Shown here: positions 4,394 through 17,190 of the stretch, piece by piece
Numbering within the stretch: the first letter of the stretch is position 1
Layout of the letters: every line of letters begins with the position of its first letter
Assembly: GCA_015067525.1 (NCBI GenBank)
Contig: SVMH01000002.1
Span: 25,080-89,079 of the forward strand
Length of the DNA: 64,000 nucleotides
DNA from: Oscillospiraceae bacterium
GTDB taxonomy: Bacteria; Bacillota; Clostridia; Oscillospirales; Oscillospiraceae
Reading direction: 5' to 3'
Translations under genes and position numbers: made by a program
The notes under the pieces: generated by a model
The model's database searches: none
What the model was told of the DNA's origin: nothing
Seen by the model: only the letters and a program-made list of their open reading frames with translations

Positions 4394-4555
4394 GCATACC
4401 CAAAAATTACAGGCCAGACAAGTAATTCAAAAAAACCTTACGCCTATAGAGACACTCTAACGGAGATCGATTCTTTATATCTTTCTTCTGTGCAATTTGC
4501 ATAATCACTTTCCAAATCTACCTTGACAATCTCTCACAATTTTGATATAAATAAG

Positions 4556-4664
4556 TTGACTGTATGACTGACGGAAGTGGAGTGACCACACGGAGTACAG
4601 TTGCGGAATACCGCTATTGCCGACCGTCTGGGCGTACTACACATTGTAGTGCGTCCTTTTTTGT
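4556..4664 (+). promoter_or_regulatory. ZTP (pfl-type) riboswitch with overlapping intrinsic terminator, upstream of fhs
   Basis: Conserved-looking 'GACTGACGGAAGTGGAGTGACCACACGGAGTA ... GCCGACCGTCTGGGC' followed by GGCGTACTACA-cat-TGTAGTGCGTCC-TTTTTT hairpin that overlaps the CTGGGC element; located in fhs 5' leader. Confidence 0.85.
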
Positions 4665-4709: not shown

Positions 4710-6383
4710 ATGGAATTCAAGACCGACATCGAAATCGCCCAGGCTTGTACAATGCAGCCCATCACCGAAATTGCTAAAGTGGCCGGTGTGGAAGAGAAAT
4801 ATCTGGAGTTGTACGGTAAGTATAAGGCCAAGGTGGACTATAACCTGCTGCGCGAAACGGACCGTAAGGACGGCAAGCTGATCCTGGTCACCGCCATCAA
4901 CCCCACCCCTGCCGGTGAGGGTAAGACCACCACCACCGTGGGCCTGGCCGATGGTCTGCGCCGTCTGGGCAAGAATACGCTGGTGGCTCTCCGTGAGCCT
5001 TCCCTGGGCCCCGTGTTCGGCGTCAAGGGCGGTGCTGCCGGCGGCGGCTATGCACAGGTGGTGCCCATGGAGGACATCAACCTCCACTTCACCGGTGACT
5101 TCCACGCCATCGGTGCTGCCAACAACCTGCTGGCCGCCATGCTGGATAACCACATTCAGCAGGGCAACAGCCTGGGTATCGACGTTAAGCGCATCGTCTG
5201 GAAGCGCTGCGTGGATATGAACGATCGCCAGCTGCGTAACGTCATCGACGGTCTGGGCGGCCGCATGCAGGGTGTGCCCCGTGAGGATGGCTTCGACATC
5301 ACCGTGGCCAGCGAGATCATGGCAGTTCTGTGCCTGAGCGCCGATATCCCCGACCTGAAGGCCCGCCTGGGCCGCATGGTGGTGGCTTACACCTTCGACG
5401 GTAAGCCTGTCACCGCCCATGACCTGAAGGCCGAGGGCGCTATGGCGGCCCTGCTGAAGGACGCCCTGAAGCCCAATCTGGTGCAGACCCTGGAAGGCAC
5501 GCCTTCCTTCATCCACGGCGGCCCCTTCGCCAATATCGCCCATGGCTGCAACAGCGTCATGGCCACCAAGATCGCTCTGAAGCTCTCTGATTACTGCGTC
5601 ACCGAGGCCGGCTTTGGTGCCGACCTGGGCGCAGAGAAGTTCCTGGACATCAAGTGCCGTCTGGCCGGCCTGACTCCTGCCGCTGTTGTGGTGGTGGCCA
5701 CCGTCCGCGCTCTGAAGAACCATGGCGGCGTACCCAAGGCTGAGCTGAACAACGAGAATCTGGAAGCGCTGGAGAAGGGCCTGCCCAACCTGCTGCAGCA
5801 TGTGGAGAACATCACGCAGGTCTACGGTCTGCCCTGCGTGGTGGCTATCAATGCTTTCCCCACTGATACCGCCGCCGAGCTGAAGCTGGTGGAGGATAAG
5901 TGCCGCGCTCTGGGCGTCAACGTCGCTTTGAGTGAGGTTTGGGCCAAGGGCGGCGAGGGCGGTATGGCTCTGGCCGAGGAAGTGGTTCGCCTGTGCGAAC
6001 AGCCCTCCAACTTCACCTTCGCCTATGATGTGGAGGACAGCATTGAGGATAAGCTCAACGCCATCGCCAAGAAGATCTACCACGCCGACGGTGTGGCGCT
6101 GACTCCCGGTGCCCGCAAGCAGATGAAGGAGCTGGAGGCCAATGGTTTCGGCAACCTGCCCATCTGCATGGCCAAGACCCAGTATTCTTTCTCTGATGAT
6201 CCCGCTCTGCTGGGTGCACCCCGCGGATTTACCGTCACCGTGCGCAACCTGAAGGTCAGCGCCGGCGCCGGCTTCCTGGTGGCCCTGACCGGCGATATTA
6301 TGACTATGCCGGGTCTGCCCAAGGTCCCCGCTGCCGAGAAGATCGACGTGGACGAGACCGGCAAGATCACCGGCCTGTTCTAA
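4710..6383 (+). CDS. fhs: Formate-tetrahydrofolate ligase
   Basis: 557 aa; '[28 protein letters not shown]', '[36 protein letters not shown]'. Confidence 0.98.
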
Positions 6384-7608: not shown

Positions 7609-8886
7609 ATGATCCATCTGCAATTTCCTTACGGGAAAGAACATAAAGAACTTAGTCTGCCCCGCCGTCAGGTGAAGGCTGTGCTGACCTCCGAACTGGA
7701 GCGTTACCGGCCCGACTGCGACGCCGAGACGCTGGTGCGCCGCGCACTGGAAGCGCCCATCGGCTCGCTGCCGCTGCACGAGCTGAGCCGCGGCAAGCAG
7801 CGCGTCACCATCATTGCCAGTGACCATACCCGCCCTGTGCCCAGCAAGCTTTTGATGCCGCAGCTGCTGCGTGAGATCCGCACCGGTAACCCGGAGGCGG
7901 AGATCACCATCCTCATCGCCACCGGCTGCCACCGCGAGACCAGCCGCGAAGAGCTGATCGCCAAATTTGGCGAGGAGATCGTGGCGCAGGAGAAGATCGT
8001 GGTGCATGACTGCGACGATGTGGAGAACATGGTGCTCCTGGGCACGCTGCCCTCCGGCGGCGAGTGCTGGGTCAACCGTCTGGCCTGCGAGGCAGATCTT
8101 CTGGTGTCGGAAGGCTTTATCGAACCCCACTTCTTTGCCGGATATTCCGGCAGCCGCAAGGCGGTGCTGCCCGGTGTGGCGGGCCGCAGCACCGTGCTGG
8201 CCAACCACTGCGCCGAGTTTATCGACCATCCGGCCTCCCGCGCCGGCAGTCTGCAGGAAAATCCCATCCACCGCGATATGGTGTGGGCCGCCCGCAAAGC
8301 GGGTCTGGCCTTTATTCTCAACGTTGTGCTCAACGGCGAGAAGGAGAACATCCACGCCGTGGCAGGTGATATGGAAGCTGCGCACGAAGCGGGCTGCCGT
8401 TTTCTGGAGGGCCTGTGCGGCGTGGAAGCTGCCATGGCCGACATCGTCATCACCACCAACGGCGGCTACCCGCTGGATCAGAACATCTATCAGGCCGTCA
8501 AGGGTATGACGGCGGCGGAAGCCACCGTGAATCAGGGCGGCGTCATCATCATGATGGCCAAGTCCAATGACGGACACGGCGGCGAAGCCTTCTGCCGCGA
8601 ACTGATGGCCGGCGACGATATGGACGCCTTGATGGCCGATATCCTGCGCCGCGGAAGAGGGGAGACGCTGCCCGATCAATGGCAGGCCCAGATCATGATC
8701 CGCATTCTGCAGCGCGCCCGTGTGGTGTACATCTCCGACGCGGATGACGCGCTGGTCAGCAAGCTCCACATGACACCGGCCCACTCGCTGGAAGAGGCCA
8801 TGGTGCTGGCATCGCAGCTGCTGGGCAAGGAGGAACCTACGGTTACCGCCATTCCCGACGGCGTCGGCGTGATCGTTCATTCCTGA
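7609..8886 (+). CDS. LarA-family (nickel-pincer) 2-hydroxyacid racemase/epimerase homologue
   Basis: DUF2088/LarA sequence; residues R75, H108, H174, K184, H200 fall at the positions I recall for L. plantarum LarA active-site residues. Confidence 0.88.
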   Translation: MIHLQFPYGKEHKELSLPRRQVKAVLTSELERYRPDCDAETLVRRALEAPIGSLPLHELSRGKQRVTIIASDHTRPVPSKLLMPQLLREIRTGNPEAEITILIATGCHRETSREELIAKFGEEIVAQEKIVVHDCDDVENMVLLGTLPSGGECWVNRLACEADLLVSEGFIEPHFFAGYSGSRKAVLPGVAGRSTVLANHCAEFIDHPASRAGSLQENPIHRDMVWAARKAGLAFILNVVLNGEKENIHAVAGDMEAAHEAGCRFLEGLCGVEAAMADIVITTNGGYPLDQNIYQAVKGMTAAEATVNQGGVIIMMAKSNDGHGGEAFCRELMAGDDMDALMADILRRGRGETLPDQWQAQIMIRILQRARVVYISDADDALVSKLHMTPAHSLEEAMVLASQLLGKEEPTVTAIPDGVGVIVHS

Positions 8887-8900
8887 GAGGAGCGCATGCC

Positions 8901-10022
8901 ATGAAACAGATTATTATAATCCCCGATTCCTTCAAAGGTACCCTTTCTGCCGTGGAATTCTGCCAGTTGGGCAGGGAAGTGGTGGAGAAGCATCTTCCCG
9001 ACTGCCGCGTGCTGACCATCCCTGTGGCTGACGGCGGCGAGGGCACGGTGGACTGCTTTGTCCATGCGCTGCAGGCCCGCCGCGTCTGCGTCGCGGTAAC
9101 AGGCCCCTGGGGCGAGAAAGTGCAGGCGGAATATGCCGTGCACGAGGACACGGCTTTCGTAGAGATGGCCCAGGCCGCCGGCCTTCCCATGGTGGGCGAG
9201 CGGAAAGATCCGTCCCTGACCACCACCTACGGCGTGGGCGAGCTGATCCGCCACGCGGTGGAACACGGCTGCCGGAACATTGTGGTGGGCCTTGGCGGTA
9301 GCTGTACCAACGACGCCGGTACCGGCGCCGCGGCTGCGCTGGGTGTCCGTTTCCGGGACGAGAGCGGCGCGGAATTTGTGCCCACCGGCTCTACCATGTG
9401 CCGTATCGCCGGCTATGACACGTCGGCGGCGCAGCAGCTCCTTTCCGGCTGCACCGTGACGGCTATGTGCGATATTGACAATCCCATGTACGGCCCCCAG
9501 GGCGCGGCCGCCATCTTCGGCCCGCAAAAGGGCGCGGATGAGGCTATGGTGGAGCGTCTTGACGCAGGCCTGCGCAGCCTTGCCGCCGTGATGCTGCGCC
9601 AGAGCGGCAGAGAGATTGCCGCCATTCCCGGTGCCGGTGCCGCCGGCGCGTTTGGCGCCGGTATCGTGGCTTTTACCGGCGGCCATTTGAAATCCGGTAT
9701 CGAGACGGTGCTGGACTGCGTGCAGTTTGACGAGCTGCTGCGTGACACGGATATGGTGTTCACCGGCGAAGGCCAGCTGGACAGCCAGAGTCTGCGGGGC
9801 AAGGTAGTCATCGGTATTGCCCGCCGCGCAGCAGCGCAGCACGTGCCGGTCACGGCCATCGTGGGCAGCGTGGGTGAGGGTGCCGAGGGCGCTTATGACT
9901 TGGGCGTCACGTCGGTTTTCAGCATCAACCGCCGCGCGGAGGACTTTTCCGTGTCCCGCCACAAGACGAAGGAGAATTTCACGGCCACCATGGACGCCAT
10001 CGTCCGTCTGCTGGCAAGATGA
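8901..10022 (+). CDS. Glycerate kinase (GlxK/GarK family)
   Basis: 'IIIPDSFKGTLSAVEFCQ', 'VADGGEGTVDCF', 'GLGGSCTNDAGTGAAAALG', 'FTGEGQLDSQSLRGK'. Confidence 0.93.
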   Translation: MKQIIIIPDSFKGTLSAVEFCQLGREVVEKHLPDCRVLTIPVADGGEGTVDCFVHALQARRVCVAVTGPWGEKVQAEYAVHEDTAFVEMAQAAGLPMVGERKDPSLTTTYGVGELIRHAVEHGCRNIVVGLGGSCTNDAGTGAAAALGVRFRDESGAEFVPTGSTMCRIAGYDTSAAQQLLSGCTVTAMCDIDNPMYGPQGAAAIFGPQKGADEAMVERLDAGLRSLAAVMLRQSGREIAAIPGAGAAGAFGAGIVAFTGGHLKSGIETVLDCVQFDELLRDTDMVFTGEGQLDSQSLRGKVVIGIARRAAAQHVPVTAIVGSVGEGAEGAYDLGVTSVFSINRRAEDFSVSRHKTKENFTATMDAIVRLLAR

Positions 10023-10030
10023 GTTACCGA

Positions 10031-10068
10031 TGAAGGGATGGGCTGATGGCCTGTCCCTTCATTTTTTG
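10031..10068 (+). terminator. Rho-independent terminator after glycerate kinase
   Basis: TGAAGGGA..GGGC-TGAT-GGCC..TCCCTTCA followed by TTTTTT. Confidence 0.75.
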
Positions 10069-10186
10069 CGCCAAATATGGGAAAACTTTTTCCAAAGACT
10101 GGAGTTCGGGTGCAAACTGTGCTATAGTTATCTTGGATTATTATCTGTGCGCAAGTGCACATCAAATACGTTTTGCGAGGTGCAAA

Positions 10187-13100
10187 ATGAGTGAGATGAA
10201 CTATCAGAATGAGGAACTGCGCCGCGTATTGCAGCAGCTGAGCGCGGAAGTGCCGGCAGCCGGCGCGCTGCTGGCGGACGAGGCTCTTATGGCGCAGCTG
10301 GAAGCGGTGGGCGGTCATGAAAGCGATGCCTGCCTCCGTACGCTGGAGCTGTGCACTGCCGTAATGGTGCAGCGCCCTGCGGATATAAAGCAGTGGCTCA
10401 GCGACCTTTGCGACCGCCTCAGCGACAATATGTTTCCCGATGCCCAGCACCCCCGCCGCGACCTGACAGAGGATGAGCGGCTGTATCTGGCGGTGCTGGA
10501 GAATGTACTGCCGCAGCACGTTGCAGAGTTTGACCCGCTGACGGATGTACTGCGCTTTGAAGAGGAGGCTCTACACCGTAGCCGCGTAGCCAAGGAATAC
10601 GCCCGCTACCGCCGCGCCATCGTGGCCGCCCACGTGCTGCCTCTGATGCGTATCAGCCGCGAGATCCGCCCCTTTGACCCGGCCTCCCATACCATCGGCG
10701 TGCACAATGTGGCGCTGCACACCGCCATCATGGCGGACAAAGCCGGCATCGCTGTGGACCTGCCGCTGGTCAGTGCCGCGGCCTTTGGCCACGATATCGG
10801 CAAGTTTGGCTGCCGCGGTGACGATGCCCGCCGCATTCCGTATCTGCACTACTACTATACGTGGCAGTGGTTCAGCGAACACGACATGGAGGAACTGGGC
10901 CACGTGTCGGCCAACCACTCCACGTGGGATCTGGAGTTTGAGAACCTGCCGGTGGAGTCGCTGCTGCTGATCTATGCCGACTTTCGCGTCCGTGGTACCC
11001 GCGGGGCGGACGGTAAGGAGCAGATTCGCATCTATACGCTGGCCGAAGCTTATGAAATGATCTTCTCCAAGCTCTACGACATGACACCGGAGAAACAGAA
11101 GCGCTACCAGACTGTTTACTACAAGCTGCGCGATTTTGAGCGGCTGCTGTGCTCGGCCGGTGTGCCGACCGATATGGGCGAGGATACGCTGCGTGCGGCC
11201 GATACCCGGGATGAATCCCTGCTTTCCGCGGAAGACGCTTTGCAGGCGCTGCGGAACATGGCTCTTTCCGGTTCCATGCGATTGATGCGTACCATCACCA
11301 CCGATCACTCCTTTGAGCAGCTCCTGGAGCAGGCCAAGGGCGAGAAGAACCTGCAGCGTATCCGCACTTACCTCATGCTGCTGCAGGAATACAGCACCTA
11401 CATGACCAAGTCCAACAAGAAAAAGACGCTGCTGCTGCTCTATGAGCTGCTGATGCATCCTGACGGCGATGTGCGCCGTATTGCCGGTCAGATCATGGGC
11501 CAGATTCTGGCCAACAGCGGCCCTAAATACCGCAAGGAGCGCCCGCAGGGCGCCAAGCGGGGCGTCATGATCCCCACCATGATGGCGCTGCTGGATGAGT
11601 CGGTGGTGCTGTGGGAGACGTATATCGAGGCCTGCCTCCATCCCGACCGCAAAATTGCGCCCAAGCACGCTCTGCGCATCTCCAACAGTCTGAAAACGCT
11701 GTGTGAGTCTCTCTTTGCCAGCAGCGATCCCAAGGAGTCCCGCCAGATGGTGGAGCCGATCCTGCGCCGTCTCTATGACGCACAGGGTGCGGACCGCTTT
11801 GTGCTGGTGGACGCCCTGACCATGATCCCCTATGAGCATATCCCGGAGGAACACCGCATTTCCATCGTGGAATCGCTGGGCGCCATGCTGAGCGAGGATG
11901 AGATCCGCCTGCAGCTGACGGCCCTGCGCTGTCTGGAATCGCTGCGCGTCCATCCGGAAGTTGTGTGTAAAGTGGAAGAGGTTGTCAATGCTTTTGATAC
12001 CTCGTTTTATAGCGACCGTGAGGTGCTGGAATACCGCAAACGCTGCGCTCTGGGCCGGCGTGAGGACAAGCTGGACGAGGACAGCGCTTCCCGTATCTAC
12101 CTCAGTAACCTGAAGAGCGCCGTTCACTGGACGGTGAAGCTGACCCAGATCGATATGCTCTGCGACCATGCCAGAGCCTGCCCTGAAACGGCGTTTCACA
12201 CGGCCATGCACCTTTCCAACGTGCTGTCCGTCAGTGAGCATTTCCCCGTGCGCCAGTCTGCCGGCCAGCATTTGCTGGAGATCGCGCCGCTGCTGAGCGT
12301 TGACCATATCAACGAGATCACCATCGACCTGCTGCGCGAACTGGAGACCGGTCAGGATGAGATCTCCTACGTGATCCCGCCGTATCTGGGCGGTTTGATG
12401 TGCCTGCTGCCGGAGAAGGAGCTGTGGGAAGCTGAGGACTATCTGGAGCAGCTGGCGCGCGGCAGCGCTATTCGCCCCGCCCGCGTGGCACTGCATGTGG
12501 TGGGTGAGATGCTCAACACGCTGCCGGAGCGCGAAAGTGCCATGATCGACCGGACGCTGGGTCTTCTGATGACCGGCATCTGCCACTACGAGCCCACCAT
12601 CCACCAGAGCGCGCTGGCCGTACTGTGCCGCGACGTGCTGGGCAGCAGCCGCATTGCGCTGCAGCGCCGCGCGGACATGTTCGTCCACCTGCACAAAAAG
12701 CTGCTGACGGTGCTGGCGGAGGCGCAGCAGGACCAGCTGTCCTTCTTCAACAGCGCCGCCATGCTCAACCACCTTTACCGCTTTATTGTGCGCCGTGAGG
12801 TGGACTGCGGCGAGTTTGCCTTCCCGGCACCCAAGCCGGCGGCCTTCTTCCCCGGCACCTTTGACCCCTTCTCCGTGGGCCATAAGCAGATCGTAGAAGA
12901 GATCCGCCGTATGGGCTTTGAGGTGTACCTGTCGGTGGATGAGTTCTCTTGGTCCAAGATGCCGCTGCCCAAGCTGCTGCGCCGTCAGATCGTCAGCATC
13001 TCGGTGGCCGACCAGTGGGATACCTATCTCTTCCCGGATGATATTCCTGTCAACATCGCCATGCCGGAGGATCTGGCCAAGCTGCCCCGGTTGCTGCCGG

Positions 13101-14875
13101 ACCGTCCGCTGTATCTGGTGGCAGGCAGCGATGTGATCTATAACGCCTCTGCCTACCGTGGCGCCCAACCGGGCAGCGCGGCGGAGTATAACCATATCAT
13201 TTTCTGCCGCAATCTCAGTGAGCAGGCGGAGCATTCTGCCTTGAAGGAGATCATTCGCGGCGATCTGAAGATCCTGTCGCTGCCGCCGTTCTATGAGTCG
13301 GTCAGCTCCACCCGTATCCGCCAGTTTATTGACCGCAAGCTGGATATCTCCATGCTGGTGGACCCTGTGGTGCAGTCCTTTATCTATGAGTACGGTTTCT
13401 ATGTCCGCTCTCCTGAGCTGAAGAACGTGATGAAGCCGCAGGACGTCTATTTCTCCCGTTACCGCGAGGCGGATGCTGCGCTGCCGGAGGAACTGAACGC
13501 CACCATCTCCGCCCTGAGTAAGCCTCTGGCGGTGACGCTGCGGGAAAGACCCGATACCATGCTGGGTTGGGCGGTTGGCCATACACTGCAGGCGGCGGAT
13601 CTCTATGACGCCCTGCACTCTCTGGAGGCGGCCCGCTATGTGCGCCGCTACGCTTCCGGCCGCATCCTCATGATCGATGAGGTATATACCGGCGAAACGC
13701 GCACCATGGAACGGTGCCGCATGCAGGTCAACGAGCTGCTGGCCCGCAGTCTGGCCAATGACCACACCTATGCCCTGTGCCGCTGCACGCCGGAGGATAC
13801 GGCGCTGCGTGAGGCGCTGGAGCAGATGGGCTTCCAGCCGGTGGCAGACTGTGAAAATACCTTCTGCGTGGATATGCGCGCGCCGGTCATGCTGCTGCAG
13901 GACGTGCTGCTGTGGCTGAAAAAGCCCCATCAGGACGATGCCGACGTGAAAAAGGCGGTGCTGCGCACCCGCCCGAAGATGCGCCGCGCCCTGTGCGATA
14001 TGTTCCCGGGCCAGCTGGTGCTGTGCTTTGACTCGGAGATGCTCAATCAGGCGGTGATGGAGCGGGTGCAGCAGGTCAACGGCGTGCAGGATGTGCCCGC
14101 CGGCGTGCGCCGTCTGGGCCCCTATATGTGTGTGCCCTACGGTAAGATCCTCTCCAACGAGATCGTGCCCAATACGGTGACCAAGACGCTCCATGCCGAA
14201 AAGTGCTTCGACTCCGAGATCGAGAACTTCGACATCGTGGAATATCCCGGCTATTCCCAACTCCATACCCAGGCCCGGACGCTGCGCTCGTTCCGCCGCC
14301 CGCTGCTGCTGGTGGATGATTTCCTCCACAAGGGCTATCGGATCGAGAAGCTGGATAAGGTCTTCCGTGAGGAGCAGCTGACCATCGACCGCATTATCGT
14401 GGGCATCATGTCCGGCAACGGCAAGGATCTGATGCAGGTCCAGGGCCGTCAGGCAGAGTGTGAGTATTTTATCCCCAATCTGCGCTACTGGCTGACGGAG
14501 AGTCTTCTCTATCCCTTTGTGGGCGGTGACAGCGTGGGTCAGCAGACCATGACGGAGCATATGCTGCCGTCCATCAACCTGATCCTGCCGTACTACTATC
14601 CCAACTTCATGCCGGAGGTCAGTGAAAAGAACATCCGTAGCTTCAGCCGTGTGGCGCTGGAAAACGCCCTGACCATCATGCGGGAGCTGGAGCGCTGCCA
14701 CCAGCGCATTTTCAACACCTCGCTGACCATCCGCCGACTGGGCGAAGCGCTGCAGCAGCCCCGCCTGCCGGATAAGGGCGACTGCATGAAATATGACTTC
14801 AGCCGTCCGGCTTCGGATTATCTGGTGGAGGACCTGCGGCAGATCCAGCGTATCTGCCGCCGTGAAAAGGAGTAA
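10187..14875 (+). CDS. ~1562-aa multidomain protein: N-terminal HD domain, central HEAT-like helical region, NadD/CoaD-type nucleotidylyltransferase domain, possible GNAT-like segment, C-terminal PRTase-like domain
   Basis: HD: 'VHNVALHTAIMADKAGI..AAAFGHDIGKFG...IYADFRVRG'; nucleotidylyltransferase: 'AAFFPGTFDPFSVGHKQIVEE' and 'SVSSTRIRQFI'; PRTase-like: 'RRPLLLVDDFLHKGYRIEKLDKVF'; start set at ATG 10187 with GAGGTG SD. Confidence 0.85.
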   Translation: MSEMNYQNEELRRVLQQLSAEVPAAGALLADEALMAQLEAVGGHESDACLRTLELCTAVMVQRPADIKQWLSDLCDRLSDNMFPDAQHPRRDLTEDERLYLAVLENVLPQHVAEFDPLTDVLRFEEEALHRSRVAKEYARYRRAIVAAHVLPLMRISREIRPFDPASHTIGVHNVALHTAIMADKAGIAVDLPLVSAAAFGHDIGKFGCRGDDARRIPYLHYYYTWQWFSEHDMEELGHVSANHSTWDLEFENLPVESLLLIYADFRVRGTRGADGKEQIRIYTLAEAYEMIFSKLYDMTPEKQKRYQTVYYKLRDFERLLCSAGVPTDMGEDTLRAADTRDESLLSAEDALQALRNMALSGSMRLMRTITTDHSFEQLLEQAKGEKNLQRIRTYLMLLQEYSTYMTKSNKKKTLLLLYELLMHPDGDVRRIAGQIMGQILANSGPKYRKERPQGAKRGVMIPTMMALLDESVVLWETYIEACLHPDRKIAPKHALRISNSLKTLCESLFASSDPKESRQMVEPILRRLYDAQGADRFVLVDALTMIPYEHIPEEHRISIVESLGAMLSEDEIRLQLTALRCLESLRVHPEVVCKVEEVVNAFDTSFYSDREVLEYRKRCALGRREDKLDEDSASRIYLSNLKSAVHWTVKLTQIDMLCDHARACPETAFHTAMHLSNVLSVSEHFPVRQSAGQHLLEIAPLLSVDHINEITIDLLRELETGQDEISYVIPPYLGGLMCLLPEKELWEAEDYLEQLARGSAIRPARVALHVVGEMLNTLPERESAMIDRTLGLLMTGICHYEPTIHQSALAVLCRDVLGSSRIALQRRADMFVHLHKKLLTVLAEAQQDQLSFFNSAAMLNHLYRFIVRREVDCGEFAFPAPKPAAFFPGTFDPFSVGHKQIVEEIRRMGFEVYLSVDEFSWSKMPLPKLLRRQIVSISVADQWDTYLFPDDIPVNIAMPEDLAKLPRLLPDRPLYLVAGSDVIYNASAYRGAQPGSAAEYNHIIFCRNLSEQAEHSALKEIIRGDLKILSLPPFYESVSSTRIRQFIDRKLDISMLVDPVVQSFIYEYGFYVRSPELKNVMKPQDVYFSRYREADAALPEELNATISALSKPLAVTLRERPDTMLGWAVGHTLQAADLYDALHSLEAARYVRRYASGRILMIDEVYTGETRTMERCRMQVNELLARSLANDHTYALCRCTPEDTALREALEQMGFQPVADCENTFCVDMRAPVMLLQDVLLWLKKPHQDDADVKKAVLRTRPKMRRALCDMFPGQLVLCFDSEMLNQAVMERVQQVNGVQDVPAGVRRLGPYMCVPYGKILSNEIVPNTVTKTLHAEKCFDSEIENFDIVEYPGYSQLHTQARTLRSFRRPLLLVDDFLHKGYRIEKLDKVFREEQLTIDRIIVGIMSGNGKDLMQVQGRQAECEYFIPNLRYWLTESLLYPFVGGDSVGQQTMTEHMLPSINLILPYYYPNFMPEVSEKNIRSFSRVALENALTIMRELERCHQRIFNTSLTIRRLGEALQQPRLPDKGDCMKYDFSRPASDYLVEDLRQIQRICRREKE

Positions 14876-14877
14876 CC

Positions 14878-16107
14878 ATGCTGAAACGATGGAATGATAT
14901 CTGCCTGTGCGGGGAAGAGGAACAGCTCTTTCCCGCCGGCGCTCAGCCGGTAACGGAGCTGTTTGCGCCGCTGGTGTTTCTGGTGCGGCGCGACGGCATG
15001 ACGTGCCGCGGCATCTGGGCCATCAACTCCCTTGCTGAGTTGGCGGAAGAGGAGGGCGTGCGCTGCCTGCTGCCCTGTGCCGACACGGAGACAGACGAAT
15101 TGGCGGACTTTGTGCACTGCCACGGTGCCACGGTGGCCAATGTGACCTTTGGACGCGTATTTGACCTGCTGCCCCGCATTTTGTTTCCCAAAACGGACGG
15201 TTTTCGTGTGACGCTGGTAGGTTTGGGCGATGTGGGCGGCACGGTGCTGACCGGCTTAAAGCTGCTGGGCCGCGAGATCGATGAGATCGCTGTCTTTGAC
15301 CCCAACGAGGCCATGTGCCGCCGCTATGAGATGGAGCTCAATCAGGTGCTGCCGGAGCATCCCGGCGGATATATGCCCCGGGTGAGCATCTGCAGCGAAG
15401 AACAGCTTTTCAACTGCGATGTGTTCATCTTCACCGCTTCCCGCGGTGTGCCCGCATTGGGCAGCGGCGTCAAGGACGTGCGTATGGCCCAATTTGAGGC
15501 CAACCGCGCCATGCTGGGTGTGTACACCCGTAAGGCCCGTGAGGCGGGCTTTGAGGGATTGTTCTGTCAGGTGTCCGATCCGGTGGATCATCTATCCCGC
15601 GAGGTGTTTCTGCACTCTAACCGCGATGACACCGGCGCCTGCGATTTCGCCGGCCTCCTGCCGGAGCAGGTGCAAGGCTTCGGCCTTGGCGTGATGGCGG
15701 CCCGCGCTGCCTATTACGCGGAGAAAGAGGGCGTTCCCTTCGAAAAGGGACGGGTCTACGGCCCCCACGGTCAGGGACTGATCGTGGCCAATTGCCCCGA
15801 TGCCGGTTACGATGACGCCGCCTCCTGCCGTTTGACCGACCTGACACGCACGGCCAATCTGGCGGTGCGTGAGCTGGGCTTCAAACCCTATATCGCCCCG
15901 GGCCTTTCCTCGGCGGCGGTATCCATCCTGCGCCTGCTGCGCGGCGAGGTGCATTACGGCGCCGTGCCGCTGGGCGGTGCGTATTTTGGCTGCACCAGCC
16001 GTATGACGCGCCGCGGCGTGGAACTGCAGCGCGAACCGGTCTGTGAGACTTTGCTGCAGCGTCTGGAGGAAACTCACCGCGCACTGCGTGAGTTTGATTA
16101 CGCATGA
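14878..16107 (+). CDS. LDH/MDH-like Rossmann-fold dehydrogenase family protein with N-terminal extension
   Basis: 'VTLVGLGDVGGTVLTGLKLLG', 'DVFIFTASRGVPALGSGVKDVRMAQFEANRAML', 'VSDPVDHLSREVF'. Confidence 0.75.
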   Translation: MLKRWNDICLCGEEEQLFPAGAQPVTELFAPLVFLVRRDGMTCRGIWAINSLAELAEEEGVRCLLPCADTETDELADFVHCHGATVANVTFGRVFDLLPRILFPKTDGFRVTLVGLGDVGGTVLTGLKLLGREIDEIAVFDPNEAMCRRYEMELNQVLPEHPGGYMPRVSICSEEQLFNCDVFIFTASRGVPALGSGVKDVRMAQFEANRAMLGVYTRKAREAGFEGLFCQVSDPVDHLSREVFLHSNRDDTGACDFAGLLPEQVQGFGLGVMAARAAYYAEKEGVPFEKGRVYGPHGQGLIVANCPDAGYDDAASCRLTDLTRTANLAVRELGFKPYIAPGLSSAAVSILRLLRGEVHYGAVPLGGAYFGCTSRMTRRGVELQREPVCETLLQRLEETHRALREFDYA

Positions 16108-17153
16108 GCGGCGCCGTGTATGTGCTGCGCCTTGGCCGCAGCCCCCGACTGGAAAAGATGCTGGATGCGGCGCTGTGCGGCCGCGAAGTGAAAGAACTGA
16201 CGTCGGACGCACTGGCACAGGGTATTTACGACCGCCGCATTCTGTTCGCCGTTGCCGTGGATGAACTGGGCGTGGATGAAACGTTCCTGCGTGCGCTGCG
16301 GACGCTGCGCAGCAGCGGACAGTGCCTGCGCGGCTGCGTGGGCGGCATCATTGTGGATGGCGCGGATGAGCTTTACACCAAATCCGCGGCGCAGGAATTG
16401 GCGCTCAGCGCCAATCAGGTCGGCTGTACGTTCCCCGGAAAGCCGCTGGTGGAGGGCACGGGCTCTCTTTATAACCAGCACATTCTGGCCCAGCGGCTGG
16501 GCCTGAGCTGGGAGGAGACCTATTTCGCCCGCGGCAGGGAACTGGTGGAGCGGATCCTGGCCTTTGAAGCGCCGAAATTCGATAACCCCAAGATCCTGAT
16601 GCTCCACGCGTCGGATAATCTGCGCTCCAACACGGTCTGGCTGGGCCGGCAGCTGCTGCAGCGGCTGCCGGAGAATTTCTCCGTGCGGGAGATCTCACTG
16701 CAAAACGGCACCATCCACGATTGCCGCGGCTGCTCCTATGCAGCCTGCCTCCACTTTTCTCAGAGCGGCACCTGCTTTTACGGCGGCACCATCTCGCAGG
16801 AGGTGCTGCCGGCCATTCGGGAATGTGACGCCATGCTCTTTTTGTGCCCCAACTACAATGACGCAGTCAGTGCCAATCTGATGGCCCTCTTTAACCGCAT
16901 GACCAACCTTCTGGTGCAGCAGGAACTGATGGATAAGCACCTGTTCGGCGTGGTGGTTTCCGGCTATTCCGGTAGCGATCTGGTGGCCCGCCAGCTGCTG
17001 GGTGCGCTGTGCTTCAACAAGACGGTGACGCTGCCGGCTCAATTCTGCATGATGGAAACGGCGCACGACCCCGGCTCTGCGCAGAAGCTGGCTGGCGTAG
17101 AGCAGCGTTTGGATGCGTTTGCCGCCCATATGGCGCAGACTTTGCAAAAATGA
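16104..17153 (+). CDS. Flavodoxin-like / NAD(P)H-dependent FMN reductase-fold protein with extra N-terminal domain
   Basis: 'PKILMLHASDNLRSNTVWLGRQLLQRL...ISLQNGTIHDCRGCSYAACLHFSQSGTCFYGG...AMLFLCPNYNDAVSANLMALFNRM'; 4-nt ATGA overlap with upstream gene. Confidence 0.75.
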   Translation: MSGAVYVLRLGRSPRLEKMLDAALCGREVKELTSDALAQGIYDRRILFAVAVDELGVDETFLRALRTLRSSGQCLRGCVGGIIVDGADELYTKSAAQELALSANQVGCTFPGKPLVEGTGSLYNQHILAQRLGLSWEETYFARGRELVERILAFEAPKFDNPKILMLHASDNLRSNTVWLGRQLLQRLPENFSVREISLQNGTIHDCRGCSYAACLHFSQSGTCFYGGTISQEVLPAIRECDAMLFLCPNYNDAVSANLMALFNRMTNLLVQQELMDKHLFGVVVSGYSGSDLVARQLLGALCFNKTVTLPAQFCMMETAHDPGSAQKLAGVEQRLDAFAAHMAQTLQK

Positions 17154-17190
17154 GAAAACACACGCAGACACGGTCTGCGTGTGTTTTTTG
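17152..17190. terminator. Bidirectional terminator between convergent genes
   Basis: AAAACACACGCAGAC-ACG-GTCTGCGTGTGTTTTTT. Confidence 0.9.

Follow-up and report, generated by a model that had tools for sequence, protein, structure and literature searches.

This locus of an Oscillospiraceae bacterium raises the question of what three closely packed genes, which combine nucleotide chemistry with two redox folds, might do together. In the window, the 64,000-nucleotide stretch of DNA that was analysed, P1 (10187..14875, + strand) encodes a 1562-aa five-domain protein, P2 (14878..16107, +) a 409-aa LDH-fold protein and P3 (16104..17153, +) a 349-aa protein with an alpha/beta N-terminal domain and an FMN_red domain. 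A 2-nt gap separates P1 from P2, and P2 and P3 share a 4-nt ATGA overlap. An upstream intrinsic terminator (about 10029..10068, +), consisting of a hairpin and a T run, lies 3' of a glycerate-kinase-like gene, and a second one (about 17153..17189, no strand assigned), formed by a near-perfect inverted repeat, lies between P3 and the convergent gene that comes next. Folding gave -25.1 kcal/mol (z -4.5) for the upstream hairpin (about 10029-10063, with its T run) and -25.3 kcal/mol (z -6.3) for the downstream one (about 17153-17189), values that not one of 200 shuffled sequences reached. The ORF check and the shuffled folding confirmed the coordinates, gap, overlap and bounding terminators given in the initial annotation. 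A Shine-Dalgarno-like GCGAGGTG is present at 10175-10182, 5' of the P1 start, and the start at 10187 was backed by the orthologues L002 and L005, which align from residue 1. A longer P1 ORF from 10046 is unlikely to carry the true start because that start falls inside the upstream terminator.

Riboswitch control of the trio was ruled out, as an Rfam scan gave no match immediately 5' of P1, either in the window or at the seven loci scanned; the FMN riboswitch in L053 sits 5' of another ORF. Elsewhere in the window, a ZMP/ZTP riboswitch (4554-4640, +) was found immediately 5' of an ORF (4710-6383) resembling formate-tetrahydrofolate ligase, and 7609-10022 (+) holds a LarA/DUF2088 racemase-family-like ORF followed by the glycerate-kinase-like gene, both named by inspection.

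A gene-neighbourhood survey bore out the earlier proposal of a conserved, dedicated trio joining nucleotide chemistry to two redox folds, as opposed to genes only sporadically adjacent: P1 and P2 were linked in fixed order at 72 of 75 informative loci. This arrangement was seen in no fewer than 11 families, from Clostridia and related groups (f1, f22, f25, f43, f45, f59, f65, f67, f84, f111 and f136). P2 and P3 follow P1 in 25 of the first 28 P1 loci; of the other three, one is cut off by the end of its contig and two (L056 and L068) are additional P1 paralogs. Six of seven further distinct loci had P1-P2-P3 linked (L092 and L004 being one and the same locus). The seventh, genome G803, has P1 in mid-contig, on a different contig from its P2-P3 pair, and makes up the three linkage exceptions together with the two paralogs. 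L053 and L054, which we counted as linked, carry an insert of ~5.5 kb between P1 and P2. Protein distances were correlated (r 0.90-0.95).

P3 usually follows P2, yet is dispensable in one family, f59. Among the f59 loci examined, P2 follows P1 in 40 of 40 and P3 follows in 29, and a genome-wide search (E <= 0.001) did not find P3 in the 11 of 40 genomes without a linked copy. At the P3-less loci L188, L189, L190, L196 and L197, the P2 alignment covered mainly the LDH-fold part, the N-terminal region being different. P1 was spread over several frames in L185 (8075-12881) and L186 (7139-12044), with P2 intact in both and P3 also in L185; the split may reflect decay or sequencing error.

P2 was detected in 13 of 32 genomes of the window's own genus, and the presence of the trio is therefore patchy. 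Full-length P1 turned up in 2 of the 247 other genomes sampled within its order; in a class sample of 246 genomes, 21 besides the window's own carried it, either complete or in sizeable fragments. The trio is unnamed in Pfam, NCBIfam and PADLOC, and we found nothing on it in open-access text, an absence that is no proof. Each part has a known fold; it is the system and its architecture that appear to be new, and the trio is apparently undescribed. A defence system was rejected on the lack of any PADLOC model match (E <= 0.01). A phage or viral origin was also rejected, P2 having neither a match in phages nor a confirmed relative in viral contigs, as was a plasmid-borne location, for which the single match was a 2.6-Mb entry, labelled a plasmid and probably a chromosome. 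The spore-related role offered in the initial annotation did not hold up, since SpoIVA is missing from 6 of 24 carriers and present in 21 of 22 non-carriers.

The domains of P1 are arranged in the order HD–HEAT–NadD-like–GNAT fold–type I PRTase fold, and among 28 members Pfam matches were obtained to CTP_transf_like in 25, HD in 13 and HEAT in 10. The HD domain (10574..11176, +; about residues 130-330) has the di-metal ligands H168, H202, D203, H221, H244 and D265, all six invariant in the 74 covering sequences (one locus counted twice). An extended H...HD...H...H...D motif is the mark of dinuclear HD sites (PMC8177086). The Arg that HD phosphohydrolases typically carry three residues before the first His is absent; at this position, residue 165, the window's P1 has Asp and 20 of the 28 members have Thr, with Arg in none. 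We rejected the HD domain as a YqeK, given that it compared with the YqeK profile at 40% probability over only 39 columns (hhalign) and that P1 was not among the matches of a TIGR00488 (YqeK) search. The DVU_1551 nucleotidyltransferase-HD fusion family weakly matched 22 of 28 HD domains (A6; best E 3.1e-7). The HEAT-type repeat region that follows (11219..12811, +; about residues 345-875) comprises about 530 residues.

The NadD-like nucleotidylyltransferase domain (12836..13426, +; about residues 884-1080) aligned with the canonical NadD of the same genomes at 99.3% (hhalign, E 3.2e-20). In an AlphaFold2 model of P1 residues 874-1562 (mean pLDDT 87.5), this domain matched M. tuberculosis NadD with a TM-score of 0.78. 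The GTFDP, K924, GSD and SST.IR motifs are retained, and in HxGH the first His is replaced by Ser, Thr or Asn while the second is kept in 74 of 75 sequences. P1 domains scored at most 59 bits, below the TIGR00482 equivalog cut-off of 112.45 bits, a threshold that the canonical NadD encoded elsewhere in these genomes exceeds. Of 20 carriers, 19 had canonical NadD and YqeK scoring above the respective cut-offs; G298, perhaps through an assembly gap, had neither. P1 was rejected as the housekeeping NadD on the basis of this coexistence. In the window's own genome, NadD and YqeK matches fall in one 437-aa frame (G000:C26:19433-20584), apparently a NadD-YqeK fusion. HIGH-type nucleotidylyltransferases act on small-molecule substrates as a norm.

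The remaining two folds of P1 have departed from the motifs of their families. The modelled C-terminal half also matches GNAT proteins such as AtaT, and the GNAT-fold domain (13439..13876, +; about residues 1085-1230) lacks the acetyl-CoA loop motif, with no conserved pyrophosphate-loop motif (Q/RxxGxG/A) at residues 1168-1200. Xanthine and uracil phosphoribosyltransferases were matched by Foldseek at E about 1e-4, and Pribosyltran was found in 13 of 28 P1 C-terminal parts (best E 0.0012), in agreement with a type I PRTase-fold domain at 13964..14626 (+; about residues 1260-1480). The PRPP loop reads VD[D/N/T]xxxKGYR, against a canonical acidic pair followed by TGxT. With K-G-Y-R in the loop and a second acidic residue that varies (D/N/T), base transfer may therefore be lost. 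To our knowledge, the phosphoribosyltransferases of NAD synthesis (NadC, PncB and NAMPT) do not have the type I fold, and the nicotinamide-type cofactor proposed earlier is therefore not directly implied.

The predicted extra domains and motifs of both redox proteins were found where the initial annotation had placed them. P2 has an N-terminal extension of about 105 aa ahead of its Rossmann domain, with GLGDVG from residue 115 and VSDPVD at 232-237, and its family profile aligned end to end with clostridial LDHs (hhalign 97.7%). R109, R171 and H195 of LDH correspond to R202, R276 and H297 of P2, while D168 is replaced by M273 and N140 by D234, the D168/R171 register being taken from the motif alignment. 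R202, D234, M273, R276 and H297 are invariant in 73 of 73 sequences. With Met in place of the catalytic Asp of LDH, P2 may therefore not be a dehydrogenase. P3 consists of an N-terminal alpha/beta domain (residues 1-157) and FMN_red (PF03358, 162-321), which scored 56 bits against a Pfam cut-off of 24 and was found in 25 of 25 members (E <= 0.01). C207, C210, C215 and C224 are invariant and form a CX2CX4CX8C loop at 207-224. The modelled P3 fold (mean pLDDT 89.4, the Cys loop at 206-225 being of low confidence) matches azoreductase and NQO-type flavoproteins. In the model, the alternating alpha/beta order of the N-terminal domain is suggestive and consistent with a flavodoxin-like fold. Duplicated flavodoxin halves were not accepted, as the profile comparison was weak (7.8%, E 0.0045) and only the order of elements was suggestive.

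The two extra P1 paralogs, L056 in genome G388 and L068 in G428, lack P2 and P3 and have altered NadD motifs, with replacements at K924 and S1041 in L056 and at G890, G980, D982, S1040 and R1045 in L068; their HD and PRTase motifs are intact. The NadD domain identity to trio members of the family was 0.60 for L056 and 0.51 for L068, compared with 0.73 among the members, and the HD domain identity was 0.71 and 0.66, compared with 0.76. In G803, in which P2-P3 are present although unlinked, the NadD motifs of P1 are intact. No further P1 paralogs without P2 were recovered in the family and order of G388. Together with the intact motifs in G803, this decay is consistent with a need of P2 for NadD-type chemistry, with the proviso that L056 and L068 are related and may represent one event. 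Both genomes also hold an intact P1, and redundancy alone could therefore explain the decay.

An NADP-glutamate dehydrogenase gene adjoins the trio in f1, f22, f43 (four genomes) and f59; its side and orientation vary, and most loci lack it as a neighbour. In two f45 genera, three archaeal-type glutamate-synthase-like genes and an ammonium-transporter-like gene, named by inspection, lie between P1 and P2, and L064 has a gltA-type gene 5' of P1. The pattern was picked out after the fact and is suggestive; on the leading explanation given below, the trio probably works within the NADP(H)/glutamate metabolism of anaerobes. We found no transporter or catabolic enzyme consistently linked at the trio loci. 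At f59 loci such as L185, L186, L204 and L215, a small putative lipoprotein (about 160 aa) is often present 5' of P1 and a PHP-type hydrolase is often present downstream.

The leading explanation is tentative: the three genes would together make up a self-contained module dedicated to a single small nucleotide cofactor or metabolite. In its specific form, which we regard as possible though short of probable, P1 builds and removes a NAD-like dinucleotide for P2, with P3 as the electron partner. The PRTase-fold domain would bind or form a phosphoribosylated moiety, and the NadD-like domain would join this moiety to AMP from ATP, giving a NAD/NaAD-like adenine dinucleotide. The di-metal HD domain would then hydrolyse wrong or surplus dinucleotide in the manner of YqeK beside NadD; in a NadD-YqeK fusion, the HD domain of YqeK has been shown to hydrolyse NaAD and mis-made analogues of it (PMC9426524). 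The HEAT repeats might hold the partners, and P2, with its GxGxxG site, would use or transform the dinucleotide in a putatively rewired centre, where the His-Asp dyad would have become His-Met and the NADP-side Asn an Asp. Where present, P3 with its four invariant cysteines would exchange electrons with P2. This tentative reading draws on the conserved linkage and order, the correlated distances, the NadD fold and motifs, the presence of a PRTase fold, the HD ligands, the YqeK-NadD precedent, the occurrence of P1 in addition to canonical NadD and YqeK, the paralog decay, the intact NadD motifs in G803 and the glutamate dehydrogenase neighbours, but has against it the lost first His of HxGH, the altered PRPP loop, the PRTase fold being of type I, the Asp to Met change in P2 and the missing HD Arg. 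That the product is an undescribed NAD-like adenine dinucleotide cofactor with a base other than nicotinamide, made through the PRTase and NadD-like modules and served by a dedicated, rewired P2, is quite unlikely.

The main rival is a regulatory complex, which we judge somewhat unlikely. The NadD-like, PRTase and GNAT folds of P1 would serve chiefly as sensors of nucleotide, PRPP or NAD(P) levels, the HD domain would add or remove a nucleotide signal, and the HEAT repeats would dock target enzymes such as NADP-glutamate dehydrogenase or GOGAT, leaving P2 and P3 as redox read-outs; it might work loosely like GlnD, a nucleotidyltransferase plus HD, in nitrogen control. The degenerate GNAT and PRTase motifs, the length of the HEAT-type region, the glutamate dehydrogenase genes adjoining in f1, f22, f43 and f59 and the GOGAT/Amt genes in f45 all point this way, as does the weak match of 22 of 28 HD domains to a nucleotidyltransferase-HD fusion family. 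However, conservation is strict both in the NadD motifs and among the pocket residues of P2, HIGH-type nucleotidylyltransferases are from general knowledge normally small-molecule enzymes, and most loci have no glutamate dehydrogenase neighbour.

It is unlikely that the trio instead proofreads or repairs metabolites, recognising damaged or mis-made NAD(P), NaAD and related dinucleotides and hydrolysing, rebuilding or re-reducing them, as a possibly more elaborate form of the NadD-YqeK arrangement. HD and NadD do share a single chain, YqeK has been shown to remove mis-made NaAD analogues (PMC9426524), the redox partners have dinucleotide and flavin folds, and the trio coexists with canonical NadD and YqeK. 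That same coexistence means that a canonical YqeK is already at hand, whereas the P1 HD domain is not a YqeK, and presence in 13 of 32 genomes of the genus would be odd for general repair. A catabolic side pathway linked to amino-acid fermentation, in which P2 is active as a 2-hydroxyacid/2-oxoacid dehydrogenase for an unusual substrate, is reoxidised by P3 and yields a product that P1 activates, is very unlikely: P2 retains R109, R171 and H195, and contexts or carriers include glutamate dehydrogenase, GOGAT, serine ammonia-lyases and a Stickland organism, but Met replaces the catalytic Asp168 in every P2 sequence and the loci have no transporter or catabolic enzyme as a constant neighbour.

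Like the NadD-YqeK pair or fusion, P1 holds NadD-type and di-metal HD domains in one polypeptide, but its HD domain is N-terminal and not YqeK, HEAT, GNAT and PRTase parts are added, the first His of HxGH is replaced, and it coexists with the canonical pair and has the fixed partners P2 and P3. P2 resembles lactate/malate dehydrogenase in its full-length fold match, R109, R171, H195 and GxGxxG site and differs in Asp168 to Met and Asn140 to Asp throughout and in its N-terminal extension, whereas P3 resembles NADPH-dependent FMN reductases and flavodoxin-like quinone reductases (FMN_red above the Pfam cut-off; azoreductase/NQO-type fold) and adds to them its alpha/beta domain and invariant Cys loop. 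Compared from general knowledge, GlnD shares with P1 opposing nucleotidyl-transfer and HD modules and, in some families, nitrogen-metabolism neighbours, but the P1 nucleotidyltransferase belongs to the unrelated HIGH-type superfamily, and P1 has no ACT domains and has redox partners.

The genes have been kept together in at least 11 anaerobe families with fully invariant catalytic-type residues. If the trio supplies a dedicated NAD-like cofactor, it would be among the very few pathways of this kind; if it is regulatory, it would represent a new point of redox or nitrogen control in Clostridia. For experiments, natural contrasts are available in the genomes that lack P3 and in the altered P1 paralogs, and Acetoanaerobium noterae, a named, cultured carrier, has the full trio.
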